A stretch of 35,733 nucleotides of DNA from Deltaproteobacteria bacterium (lineage in GTDB: Bacteria > Myxococcota_A > Bradymonadia > REDH01): contig REDH01000092.1 of the NCBI GenBank assembly GCA_007693585.1, forward strand, positions 1 to 35,733, read 5' to 3'. Positions 24,728 through 31,345 of the stretch are shown here, one piece after another (the stretch's first letter is position 1; each line of letters starts with the position of its first letter). The notes below the pieces were generated by a model, which had not been told where the DNA came from, searched no databases, and saw nothing but the letters and a program-made list of their open reading frames with translations. Both the position numbers and the translations under genes were made by a program.

Positions 24728-27511
24728 TCAGGGCAGCCGATCGCCGAGGACCGTGACGGGAGGCAGCAGGGCCCGGAGCCTCGTCGGGTCGCCCCCAGGC
24801 TCCGGTCCCTCGGTGTCTCCCGGCCACCAGGGAGGCAGCCAGGCCGGCACCGCGGCGGCTCCGGGTACATGCCAGCCGGTTCCTTCCTCGTTGATGCACG
24901 CCCGCTGACGGTTCGCGCACGTGCGCTGGTCCAGGATCGTGACCCCGTCGACGCCCAGCAGGACCTGCCGCTGCAGGCTGCCGTCGGGCCCGCGCTCGAA
25001 CCGGACCAGCGAGGCCTGGAGCCACGGGCCACCCAGCTCGGCCTGAACGGGATCCCCCTCCGCATCGAGGAAGGCCAGCGTCCGCACACCGCGCGCATCC
25101 ACCTCCCGGGCCACGCAAGTCGCACCCCGGCCGAATCCACCCAGGCTGGGGGCATGCCGCCACTGTTCGTCCATCGCGCAGCGCAGGATCCAGTCGCCCG
25201 GAAGGCTGTCCGGGCCATGCTCGAGGCGGTATCCCGCCACCCCGCCTCCGTCCTCCGTGGCCCGCCCGTCCTCCCCGAGGAAGCGTACCTGGGAGAGAAG
25301 GCCGCGGTCATCCCAGTGGTACCGGACCCGCGTGACGGAAACCGGGCCGGAGGTGCCCGGCTCGGGCTCGGTCACCCACGCCTCCGCCGGCCTGTTCGCC
25401 GAGTCGAACCGGCGCTCCCAGCGCGAGTGAGCGGTCGGTCCGACAGGACGCGGCGCACCGTCGGTCCCGAAGGCCGACAGACGGACCCGCCTGCCCCGCT
25501 CGTCCTCGTCGAGCACCAGGCAGTGGGCTCCTCCGAGGTGGTCGCTGGCGACCGGCAGATCGTCCGGGCCGAAGTGGCAGATGCGGGCAGCATGTCCGTC
25601 GGAGCCGGGCACGAAGGACATCCGGTGGACGCCCAGGGCATCGGCGGTGGGCCGACGGGTGCGGTCCAGAGTGCGAATGCCCGTGCGCCGGCCGGCCGGA
25701 CACCGGTCGACGATCACCGCGTGGACGCGGGACCCCGGGAGGCTGACCGCGTGTCCGTCCTCCCCGAGGAAACGGATGACCTCCGGCTCTCCCGGAGCGC
25801 CACTGCGGATGTCCACAGCCACGACCTCCCCCAGCAGGGGCGCAGCGACGCCGTCCTCGCTGCGCCCCTCGATGCGCAGCCGCCCGGGCTCGTGAAGGAA
25901 GTGCCAGGTGGCGGGCCGGCCGGACGCCGATGCCCGCGGCGCCCCGTCCGGGCCGAGGGTGCGGTGCCGCACGAGCCTCCCGAGGGGATCCCACGTCCGC
26001 TCGTCGGCGGTGGCAGCACCGAGGAGCGCCGCGGGTGCCCCCTGTGGATCCAGCGCTTCCCGGCGGGCCATGAGGCCTTCCGCCCCGTCGCGCCACGTCC
26101 AGAGCACTTCGTGCACCCCGGATCGGGGAAACGTGGAGGGGATCCCGTCTTCGTCCAGGCACGCCAGTCGTTCCCAGCGATCCACGCCGTCCAGGCTGTG
26201 GGTGAGCACACAGCCCGGATGGAGAGGCCGTCCCGTCCCGGACATCCAGCGCAGGGACCCCGCACCGGCGTCCATTTCGAGTCGGCCTGCGAGGTCGCCG
26301 TGGGGCGTCCGGTACTCGACGGCGAGGAGGTCGCCCGCGTCGTTCCGCTGCACGTGGACCATCCGTCGGGCGAGACCGTCCACTCCAAGGAGCGCGAACG
26401 GCTGCTCCGGCGGCGCAGCAAACGTTCGCCAGGGCACGCCGTGCTCCTCACCCGGGGGGATGGGGCCGAGGATGTGGGGCACCGGGCCGGTATGGCGCGC
26501 AACCGCGTGGGGGCGGGCTCCGTCGGTGCCTCGGGCCGGGGAGGGAGCGGCGGTGACCACGGGCTCCGGGATGGGGGTGGGAGCCTCGGTCTCGTGCGGC
26601 GGGTCGGGCGTTCGCGCTTCGTGGGGAGACTGTTCCTCCTGCCCCGTGCCGGTCGAGGCGAGGGGAACGGGGCGCTCCAGGAGCGGCCGGTAGAGGAGGG
26701 CGATCACGACCGCCATGAGGGCGAGCGCGGCGAGCTCGACCCCTGCGCGCACCCGGTGGCCGCGTCCGCGGTCGGCCCAGCGATCGAGCAGAAGGGCGCC
26801 CGACTCCGCGGGTGGCGAACCCCGCAGGGGCGGCGGGCTGCCCTCGTCGACGGCGAGGACCCGGGCCAGTGCGGCCGGCGCACCAGGCCCGTCGAGGCTT
26901 CGCAGCACGTCGGCGACGGGCTCCGGGAGCCGCCCGTGGGCGACGTCCGCCGGGACGTCGGGGTCGATACCGTACAGCCGGGCGCGGACCAGGCGCTCGA
27001 TGAAGGACCGCCGGGCCCGGGCCTCGTCCTCGGCGTCGGGCGCGGGGACGGCGACCACCCCCAGGTGCAGGGTGCGCCCCTGTGCGACGGCGCACAGCAC
27101 TCCCGGGTGGGAGAGCAGCAGGGTACAGCCGTCGTCCTCCGCGTGGGCCTCGGCGAGCTGCACGATGAGCTGTGCGCGGGCCTCTCGGCCGAGGCCACCG
27201 AGGGCCTGATCGAGAGGCATGCAGAAGGGGGACGCGTGCAGGAGGAGGAGCGTGCCGGCGGTGGTGCGCACCCGATCGACGACGGGCAGCGACGCCGCGG
27301 GGAAGTCCCGGGGCGGCGAGGCGGTGCCCGGGGGCAGCAGCAGACCCAGCAGCGCGCGGTCGTCCAGGGCGCGATCCACACAGCGTGCAAGCACCGCTCC
27401 GCCGGGGAACGCGTGCAGGAGCTCGTCCACGTGCCACCGCCCGTCGACGATCGCGCCTTCGGGCAGCGGCGCCGCGGTGGTGGGGGTCTGAAGGGGGGCG
27501 GGTGTGGTCAT
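24728..27511 (-). CDS. Membrane protein: kinase-like N-terminus plus DG-rich repeats
   Basis: 927 aa from the ATG at 27511 (42 further upstream codons are not protein-like). Not a known protein to me. Residues ~18-225 align by eye with the start and the last helices of Hanks kinases (IVDGRWHVDELL like the VDGRYRVxxxL opening; RARLYGIDPDVPADVAHGRLPE like the late lobe). The glycine loop, VAIK Lys, HRD and DFG motifs are all missing, so any kinase fold would be inactive. One transmembrane helix (~255-277) and a Pro-rich linker follow. Residues ~370-860 contain nine copies of an LGxDG-type turn (375, 452, 519, 582, 647, 681, 745, 815, 852) at ~35 or ~65 residue spacing, resembling 'DxxG...FLGxDGxP' surface repeats. 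The C-terminus is Pro/Trp-rich. Confidence 0.78.
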   Translation of the reverse strand: MTTPAPLQTPTTAAPLPEGAIVDGRWHVDELLHAFPGGAVLARCVDRALDDRALLGLLLPPGTASPPRDFPAASLPVVDRVRTTAGTLLLLHASPFCMPLDQALGGLGREARAQLIVQLAEAHAEDDGCTLLLSHPGVLCAVAQGRTLHLGVVAVPAPDAEDEARARRSFIERLVRARLYGIDPDVPADVAHGRLPEPVADVLRSLDGPGAPAALARVLAVDEGSPPPLRGSPPAESGALLLDRWADRGRGHRVRAGVELAALALMAVVIALLYRPLLERPVPLASTGTGQEEQSPHEARTPDPPHETEAPTPIPEPVVTAAPSPARGTDGARPHAVARHTGPVPHILGPIPPGEEHGVPWRTFAAPPEQPFALLGVDGLARRMVHVQRNDAGDLLAVEYRTPHGDLAGRLEMDAGAGSLRWMSGTGRPLHPGCVLTHSLDGVDRWERLACLDEDGIPSTFPRSGVHEVLWTWRDGAEGLMARREALDPQGAPAALLGAATADERTWDPLGRLVRHRTLGPDGAPRASASGRPATWHFLHEPGRLRIEGRSEDGVAAPLLGEVVAVDIRSGAPGEPEVIRFLGEDGHAVSLPGSRVHAVIVDRCPAGRRTGIRTLDRTRRPTADALGVHRMSFVPGSDGHAARICHFGPDDLPVASDHLGGAHCLVLDEDERGRRVRLSAFGTDGAPRPVGPTAHSRWERRFDSANRPAEAWVTEPEPGTSGPVSVTRVRYHWDDRGLLSQVRFLGEDGRATEDGGGVAGYRLEHGPDSLPGDWILRCAMDEQWRHAPSLGGFGRGATCVAREVDARGVRTLAFLDAEGDPVQAELGGPWLQASLVRFERGPDGSLQRQVLLGVDGVTILDQRTCANRQRACINEEGTGWHVPGAAAVPAWLPPWWPGDTEGPEPGGDPTRLRALLPPVTVLGDRLP

Positions 27512-27573
27512 GGGCGGCGTGCGGGTGGCGCGGTGCGCCGACGGTCGACCGGGAAAACTGTCTCGACGGGCCC

Positions 27574-27601
27574 TTGTCAGGACGAGAAGAGCGGTTAGCC
27601 T
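27574..27601 (+). promoter_or_regulatory. Promoter candidate for the thiolase gene
   Basis: TTGTCA (27574-27579), 16-nt spacer, TAGCCT (27596-27601). The -35 hexamer is identical to that of the rpsU promoter; the -10 is weak (three of six). A GATAAT at 27645-27650 is a second possible -10 without a good -35. Leader of ~130 nt to the thiolase start. Confidence 0.45.
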
Positions 27602-27741
27602 CCCGGCTGGTCCGCTGCCGGTCCGGCGTGCGGCCATGGATGTCGATAATCAGGGCCGTCTCCCGGCGAAACCCCGCACCGGACTTCGGGGGGTGCGCGC
27701 GGGTCGACTGCCGAGGCGGTCCCCTCGAGCAAGGAGCAAGC

Positions 27742-29846: not shown

Positions 29847-30163
29847 AGGCCATCGGGACCGGTGACCAGCGTCCGGCGACCGGGCAGGTCGTCGGTGTCG
29901 ACCGCCGGAGCGGTCCTTCCGAGAGGGCAGGGCAGCGAAGGGACCCGGGACCGTCCGGTTGACCGGAGGGTGGGCGTGCATTAGACGTCGGCGCCCCATG
30001 GACAGGGGTCTTCCGACGGACCGGGGTCACTCCGGTGCGCTCGCGCGGGGTCCGCATGGGTCCCCATCCGGCTTCCCAATCTCCACATGCGACCTTGAAC
30101 AGCCTCTCCCAGGGCAGTGCGCGGGGCGGCGGGCAACCCGTTCCGCCGGACGCGGAGACGACC
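29847..30163 (+). other. Intergenic region upstream of the RelA/SpoT-like gene
   Basis: 317 bp without a convincing gene. A weak promoter-like pair is TTGACC (29959-29964), 17-nt spacer, TAGACG (29982-29987). The frame of the next gene is open back to 30035, so part of this stretch could be coding if an earlier start (ATG 30056) is used, but residues there are low-complexity. No clear terminator for the DUF481 gene was found. Confidence 0.4.
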
Positions 30164-31345
30164 GTGACGATCGGGTGGGACCTGATCCGGCCCATCATCG
30201 AGGGCACGAGCGGGCTGGACGAGCCGCGGCTGCACGTGGACAGCGAGGCCTCGGCCGAGGCGTTCCTGGCATGCTACGGGTTCCGGTGGGAGCGCGCCGC
30301 GCACCGGGAGCAGCTCGAGACCCTGCGGCAGGAGGCGATCGCGTTCATCGAGGGAGAGCTGCTGCACGACGAGCCTCACCTGCGCATCGAGCCGACGGTG
30401 CGGGACGAGCGGGACGTGCGCAAGGTGCTGCTGGCGAGCGCGCGTCCGGTGGGGGATCCGATGCAGCTCTGGGCCTGCACGCTGCTGCGGGTGATGCACA
30501 CGTTCGCCCACTGCGGGTCGTTCTTCAAGCACCGGTTCGACCAGCACATTCAGCGGCAGATCCTGCAGCGCTTCGAGCCCCACCTGCAGGGGGAGGGCGA
30601 CGCGCTGTGCCTCGGCACGGACCCGAACGGGATTCCTCTGCGGGAGTTCCAGGTCAAGGGATCCAAGTCGCGGACGTCCATGGCCATGAAGCTCCTGCAC
30701 AAGCCGGACAACACGGCCGCGGAGGTCTTCGACTGGATCGGTGTGCGGTTCATCACGCGGGAGCGCTTCGACGCGCTCCTGGTGGCGGAGTACCTGCGGC
30801 GGCACAGCGTGGTCATGTTCGCCCACGTGAAGCCCGGTCGGTCGCGCAACACGCTCATCGACCTGGAGCGGTTGCGGTCGGACATGGCCCGGCTGGCGGA
30901 GGGCAAGACGCTGGACGGATTGCAGGGGATGGACATCGATACCCTGCGCCGGCTGGTGCGCAGCTATCCGTATCCGCGCCCGCCGGCGGCGGGGCGGAAC
31001 GTGTTCACGTCCATCGCGTACCACTCCATCCAGTTCACGTGTTCCCAGCAGATCATCGTGCCGGCGGAGGTGCCGGAGGAGGCGCGGGTGCAGCTCGAGG
31101 CGCTGCGGCGGTGCGACCCGAGCTGTGCGCCGCACGTGGACGCGCTGGTGGACGGGATGACGGAGAAGGAGGAGGCGCGGTTCCTGTTTCCGTTCGAGGT
31201 GCAGATCCTCGATCAGGAGAGCTGGGAGATCACGCAGGCTGGGCTGGCCTCGCACGATGTGTACAAGGCGCGGCAGCGTCACGCGGTGAAGCGGCGTCTG
31301 TGGGGCAACCTCATCGCGCCCGAGCCGTCTCCGCTTCGTCGGTGA
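30164..31345 (+). CDS. Uncharacterised protein with RelA/SpoT-synthetase-like motifs
   Basis: 393 aa from GTG 30164, chosen for GGAG at 30154-30157 (6-nt spacing). I recall related proteins only as an unnamed family of myxobacteria and a few others (possibly TIGR04552; not checked). The second half carries, in the right order, motifs like those of (p)ppGpp synthetases: VKGSKSRTSMAMKL (Lys165, Ser172, Lys176), FDWIGVRFIT (Asp190, Arg195; compare YDLIAIR), FTSIAYHSIQFT (Tyr286, Ser288; compare GYxSxH), FEVQI (Glu345; compare VEIQIRT) and ITQAGLASHDVYK (356-368; compare AExGxAxHxxYK). There is no HD hydrolase, TGS or ACT domain. Residues 1-140 are helical and unlike anything I know. Its end overlaps sodA-type gene 31311-32108 tail to tail by 35 bp. 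Confidence 0.82.
   Translation: MTIGWDLIRPIIEGTSGLDEPRLHVDSEASAEAFLACYGFRWERAAHREQLETLRQEAIAFIEGELLHDEPHLRIEPTVRDERDVRKVLLASARPVGDPMQLWACTLLRVMHTFAHCGSFFKHRFDQHIQRQILQRFEPHLQGEGDALCLGTDPNGIPLREFQVKGSKSRTSMAMKLLHKPDNTAAEVFDWIGVRFITRERFDALLVAEYLRRHSVVMFAHVKPGRSRNTLIDLERLRSDMARLAEGKTLDGLQGMDIDTLRRLVRSYPYPRPPAAGRNVFTSIAYHSIQFTCSQQIIVPAEVPEEARVQLEALRRCDPSCAPHVDALVDGMTEKEEARFLFPFEVQILDQESWEITQAGLASHDVYKARQRHAVKRRLWGNLIAPEPSPLRR

Follow-up and report, generated by a model that had tools for sequence, protein, structure and literature searches.

The window, by which we mean the whole 35,733-nt stretch of DNA that was analysed, is contig REDH01000092.1 of a Deltaproteobacteria bacterium (Myxococcota_A; Bradymonadia; assembly GCA_007693585.1). 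The open reading frame at 30164-31345 on its forward strand has a GTG start, 393 codons and a TGA stop; a first-pass annotation had placed it correctly, and every motif quoted there from the product was found in the sequence. The encoded protein (hereafter, the window protein) matched the NCBIfam model TIGR04562 over its full length (E 7.2e-98; 328 bits, curated cut-off 140) and is also a full-length member of TIGR04552 (297.5 bits, curated cut-off 125). Both are 'subfamily' models that bear the name 'TIGR04552 family protein' and have no function attached; their assignment to the RelA/SpoT (RSH) enzymes is an addition of the present analysis. The features of the gene are given in Table 1.

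Table 1. Features of the TIGR04562/TIGR04552 gene in the window and of its product (SaRelP, S. aureus RelP)
Position	Strand	Feature	Basis
30154..30157	+	GGAG, putative Shine-Dalgarno-like sequence, 6 nt upstream of the GTG start	read from sequence
30164..31345	+	complete gene of a TIGR04562/TIGR04552 protein, divergent RelA/SpoT-type synthetase; 393 aa plus stop	family profiles
30164..30583	+	N-terminal helical domain, residues 1-140; invariant D19, C105, L108, H112, H116	conservation, AlphaFold2
30665..30691	+	K168-x3-S172-x3-K176, predicted ATP phosphate-binding motif (SaRelP K80, S84, K88)	43/43
30731..30748	+	D190-x4-R195, predicted Mg-binding Asp and adenine-stacking Arg (SaRelP D107, R112)	43/43
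30749..31018	+	residues 196-285, enlarged acceptor-side region replacing the canonical b3/G-loop; invariant N229, N279; no conserved Lys	
31019..31036	+	Y286-F291, site of the base-stacking Tyr (SaRelP Y151); Tyr in 36 and Phe in 7 of 43	
31067..31174	+	second insertion (residues 302-337), modelled as helical	AlphaFold2, spacing
31196..31213	+	E345-x-Q347-x2-D350, predicted catalytic Glu (SaRelP E174), Gln, and family-specific Asp (Thr in Rel)	43/43
31241..31267	+	G360-x-A-x-H364-x2-Y367-K368, C-terminal RSH motif (His, ATP ribose contact, SaRelP H190)	
31271..31297	+	R370-Q371-x6-R378, family-specific motif in the last helix	R370 42/43, Q371 and R378 43/43

The genes around it in the window encode a thiolase, a DUF481 protein, an Fe/Mn superoxide dismutase, a beta-lactamase-like protein, an alpha/beta hydrolase and IF-3; the superoxide dismutase gene is convergent with the window gene and overlaps its last 35 nt. 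Around the gene, searches for Rfam families, tRNAs, promoters and terminators gave nothing. The same window contains a 969-aa open frame (24728-27637, reverse strand) with no Pfam match. Across 98 sampled loci of the family, no neighbour recurred in all families, and neighbourhoods were not conserved between families; divergent Lon-like, 173-aa, YicC-like and guanylate kinase genes, named by eye, recurred in part of the loci, the last of them a few genes downstream in 18 of the 98. Neither the neighbours in the window nor the recurring partners across these loci included an adjacent or fused antitoxin, and no pZFD-like neighbour of the window gene was found. An operon or toxin-antitoxin context was rejected because there is no conserved partner gene, and a role in housekeeping or signalling is the better fit. 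PADLOC and PHROGs gave no match for the window protein, and neither plasmids nor viral contigs contained the family; an origin in defence systems or phages is thus unsupported.

TIGR04552/TIGR04562 was found in 169 of 284 genomes sampled from the phylum, mostly in one copy, and in 0 of 14 control genomes. The loci that could be named, from a genome-wide scan with a sub-alignment of the family, belong to Sorangium, Polyangium, Sandaracinaceae and other Myxococcota. A canonical long Rel is also present in nearly every genome sampled, and the source genome itself has one family copy and, separately, a single canonical long Rel (736 aa). Three genomes (G148, G167 and G218) gave two complete-length family matches each, and in G148 and G167 the two scores were clearly apart, which suggests that both types can coexist. 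The occurrence in Bdellovibrio is taken from a single report, in which one population under experimental evolution gained a small indel in the TIGR04552 gene DOE51_RS08710 of the predator Bdellovibrio sp. NC01 (PMC9888234). This mutated gene was the only mention of TIGR04552 that we found among 5.39 million open-access papers, and no account of it as an RSH protein was found there; most subscription journals lie outside that scope.

Homology to the RSH synthetases

The RSH-like motif set of the window protein is real and far above chance. Pfam gave RelA_SpoT as its sole match (20.5 bits, E 5.8e-4), under the gathering score of 27, in agreement with the earlier statement that HD, TGS and ACT domains are absent. 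At E<=0.1 the same model matched 39 of 43 family members, with a best value of 1.5e-6. When whole genomes were searched with it, two members (G037:C15 and G062:C241) exceeded the gathering score by themselves and two others (G007:C25 and G090:C23) together with neighbouring pieces, at profile positions 4-112.

A single-sequence search of the PDB with the window protein returned a halogenase at E 0.24, which we consider a chance match; a family profile was needed. With the TIGR04552/TIGR04562 family HMM against all PDB sequences, 10 of 12 matches were RSH GTP pyrophosphokinases, YwaC being the first (E 1.3e-4) and RelSeq the next. The alignment of the family profile with the synthetase domains of 24 long Rel proteins from this phylum (the local Rel proteins) by hhalign scored 56.1 (E 2.7e-7) over 120 columns, with all motifs aligned in register. 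As controls, a reversed profile and 20 column-shuffled profiles were used, and the best of these reached a score of 19.4 with an E of 0.085 (range 0.09-0.7).

The AlphaFold2 model of the window protein, built with the family alignment, had a pLDDT of 89.3 and a pTM of 0.84. Its 37 top Foldseek matches in the PDB were all RSH enzymes, RelP, RelQ and Rel among them, and the best was the RelP of S. aureus bound to pppGpp (E 6.5e-4, probability 1.00). By query length, the TM-scores reached only 0.2-0.3, probably owing to the effect of the two insertions and the extra domain on a global superposition, and this makes the structural line weaker when taken alone. The four lines of homology share one family alignment and are thus not fully independent, although their programs and reference data differ.

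Taken together, these results bear out the RelA/SpoT-type fold proposed in the first-pass annotation, since the PDB matches are RSH synthetases. The window protein stands alone as a distant RSH member, and its residues from about 150 to 370 are homologous to RSH synthetase domains. That TIGR04552/TIGR04562 as a whole belongs by homology to this superfamily leaves us little doubt. In a tree of the motif blocks of the family, local Rel and local SAS, the family formed one side of a branch (99/99) with a stem of 2.72, a result obtained from only 99 columns and with long branches. The RSH classification of 2011 named 12 SAS groups, and its phylogenies admitted only sequences with E below 1e-5, dropping the most distant homologues (PMC3153485).

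The family shares with RelP and RelQ the SYNTH fold, the order of the ATP-site residues and the absence of HD, TGS and ACT domains. It differs from them in length (393 aa in the window protein vs about 200), in the N-terminal domain of ~140 residues, in its two insertions and in a non-canonical acceptor site. Other synthetases showed architectures of their own. In L163 (G028) and L171 (G065), the SYNTH domain stands behind a transmembrane HAMP-like segment, as judged by eye, and these are possible membrane-sensor alarmone synthetases. L164, L165, L166, L169 and L170, small synthetases of the canonical kind, begin with a hydrophobic segment, a possible signal peptide; exported alarmone synthetases, to which they may be compared, are the subject of PMC12691689. 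L174 has a small synthetase domain followed by apparent TPR repeats (by eye). L181 is a second long RSH (752-aa open frame) with degraded-looking synthetase motifs (NGSRALETKV vs NGYQSLHTT), and it is perhaps a hydrolase only.

The ATP half of the active site

Conservation was counted in an alignment of 43 homologues, with identities to the window protein down to 23%; 18 columns were invariant. K168, S172, K176, D190, R195, E345, Q347 and Y367 were found in all 43 sequences, G360 and K368 in 42, and H364 in 38. Both acidic positions that had been designated as catalytic, D190 and E345, are therefore kept throughout. The lysine had been misplaced: Lys165 is a lysine in only 16 of the 43 homologues, and the invariant one is K168. 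The resulting pattern, K168-x3-S172-x3-K176, is spaced like K-x3-S-x3-K in long Rel proteins, and the spacings of D190-x4-R195 and of E345-x14-G360-x-A-x-H364-x2-Y367-K368 are likewise exactly those of long Rel, RelA and SpoT. The family differs from these proteins in having neither HD, TGS and ACT domains nor the F-K-D-Y...P-K-x-N-x-Y G-loop.

In SaRelP, D107 and E174 bind Mg, and the residues that hold ATP are R78, K80, S84, K88, R91, R112 and H190 (PMC5794853). By motif register, K168, S172, K176, R195 and H364 are the equivalents of K80, S84, K88, R112 and H190, and D190 and E345 those of D107 and E174. The arginine of the R-x-K motif is not at its usual place, as position 166 is Gly in the window protein and mostly G, S, P or E in the family; an Arg at 167, present in 27 of 43, may stand in for it. 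Because the residues of the donor half are conserved, this half looks intact and able to bind Mg-ATP.

The acceptor half and the added segments

The acceptor side is built differently. The earlier suggestion that the stacking Tyr is kept stands for 36 of the 43 homologues, in which position 286 is Tyr, and fails for the seven that have Phe, although the position is aromatic in every one. These seven (L043, L049, L039, L048, L050, L051 and L035) all have N290 (7/7), and this constant pairing points to a subgroup whose acceptor differs or whose activity is lower; in FaRel2, replacement of the acceptor Tyr by Phe impairs activity (PMC11782079). Among the 24 local Rel proteins, five positions defined by their distance from the Tyr or the catalytic Glu are the same in all 24 (K at Y-4, N at Y-2, H at Y+4, R at E+4 and T at E+5), the first two being the G-loop Lys and Asn (K304 and N306 in RelSeq). 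In the family, Y-4 is S or T in 43 of 43, Y-2 is variable, E+4 is mostly hydrophobic and E+5 is Asp in all 43. Position 290 (Y+4) is Q, H or N, and the His that corresponds to RelSeq H312 is found in 14 of 43.

The long insertion noticed earlier between the Asp and Tyr motifs is real: R195 and Y286 are separated by 67-95 residues in the family vs 39 in the 24 local Rel proteins. A second insertion, which had been overlooked, lies between Y286 and E345 (26-73 vs 16 in Rel). No Lys or Arg is conserved in all homologues within residues 196-344, the best being position 298 (38/43), where the window protein has Ile.

The N-terminal segment, described earlier as a new helical domain of ~140 residues, is indeed helical and like no solved fold. 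Modelled alone, it had a pLDDT of 86.5 and no fold match in the PDB (best E 1.8, probability 0.15). A hemerythrin-like reading was considered from weak matches (E 1.8) and is not believed; by Pfam, this segment is not an HD domain.

Alarmone synthetases have a large positive patch beside the acceptor Tyr, and this patch is considerably smaller in the tRNA-modifying FaRel2 (PMC11782079). Applied to the family, this argument makes the usual mode of GDP/GTP binding less likely, although a patch for GDP/GTP may be built from the insertions.

Proposed activity and its alternatives

These observations show a distant RSH branch that has kept the ATP half of the active site and remodelled the acceptor half, and that is chromosomal, usually single-copy and without a conserved antitoxin neighbour. 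To the reading of its activity that we build on them, as set out below, we assign a probability of roughly 0.7. Judging from the conserved residues, the window protein is quite probably an active ATP pyrophosphotransferase. Mg-ATP would be bound through K168, S172, K176, R195, D190 and E345, and an acceptor stacked on Tyr286 would receive pyrophosphate from ATP on its 3'-hydroxyl. This acceptor would be held otherwise than GDP or GTP usually are, because the family lacks both the Lys-x-Asn that precedes the Tyr and the Arg at E+4, and also because two insertions and an N-terminal domain with an invariant Asp, a Cys and two His have been added; it might be a differently held nucleotide or an RNA 3' end. 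On the pattern of residues, we give even odds that the acceptor is something other than GDP/GTP bound in the canonical way, and such an acceptor is at least as likely as alarmone synthesis, since the residues that canonically hold GDP/GTP are not conserved. The role would probably be in cellular signalling or RNA control and not in a toxin-antitoxin module. The more specific proposal of a separate RSH branch that uses a non-GDP/GTP acceptor, to make a new signalling nucleotide or to modify RNA 3' ends, as a non-toxin signal of Myxococcota and Bdellovibrio, is tentative and somewhat less likely than not.

The family could instead be a new subgroup of small alarmone synthetases making ordinary (p)ppGpp, with residues of the insertions replacing the usual Lys and Asn. 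The overall RSH homology, the Tyr found in most members, the His at position 290 in a third of the alignment (14/43), a chromosomal and usually single-copy gene as for housekeeping synthetases, and the guanylate kinase gene nearby downstream in part of the loci (18/98) are consistent with this. The acceptor Lys could be supplied elsewhere, for example by the inserts or by the C-terminal R370/R378, and canonical (p)ppGpp synthesis might then occur. However, the loss of the Lys and Asn that are constant in Rel, the S or T that replaces this Lys in every homologue, the want of a universally conserved basic residue in 196-344, and the canonical long Rel already present in nearly every sampled genome argue against it, and we consider it rather unlikely.

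Slightly less probable still is the pyrophosphorylation of RNA, for instance of the tRNA 3' end, by a protein resembling toxSAS or CapRel but acting as a chromosomal regulator. The enzymes of the toxSAS/CapRel/FaRel2 type, which act on tRNA or make (p)ppApp, have the RSH synthetase fold in common with the family, and FaRel2 has the reduced acceptor patch (PMC11782079), to which the lack of a conserved basic patch here can be compared; the extra domain and the insertions could contact RNA, and the R370/R378 helix is basic and conserved. The family differs from these enzymes in that no antitoxin gene or domain was found and in being widespread, chromosomal and usually single-copy. There is likewise no pZFD-like neighbour, the tree of few columns and long branches gave no specific link to the local divergent SAS, and CapRel and FaRel2 rank low among the Foldseek matches.

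A pseudoenzyme that uses the RSH fold to sense or bind a nucleotide without catalysis would agree with the loss of the R-x-K arginine, the acceptor Lys and Asn and the E+4 Arg, but it is improbable given that D190, E345, K168, S172, K176 and R195 are invariant even with members at 23-28% identity. A convergent match of motifs with no RSH relation, which the subthreshold Pfam score of the window protein alone might suggest (20.5 bits vs 27), is contradicted by the profile, structure and control results and is hardly credible.

The recognition of a distant RSH branch turns a function-less NCBIfam family, which over half of the genomes sampled from the phylum carry, into a concrete biochemical target. 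If its members make (p)ppGpp, they would be a second, overlooked source of alarmone in these bacteria; if they use another acceptor, they would represent an RSH enzyme that belongs neither to the stringent response nor to the toxin systems.
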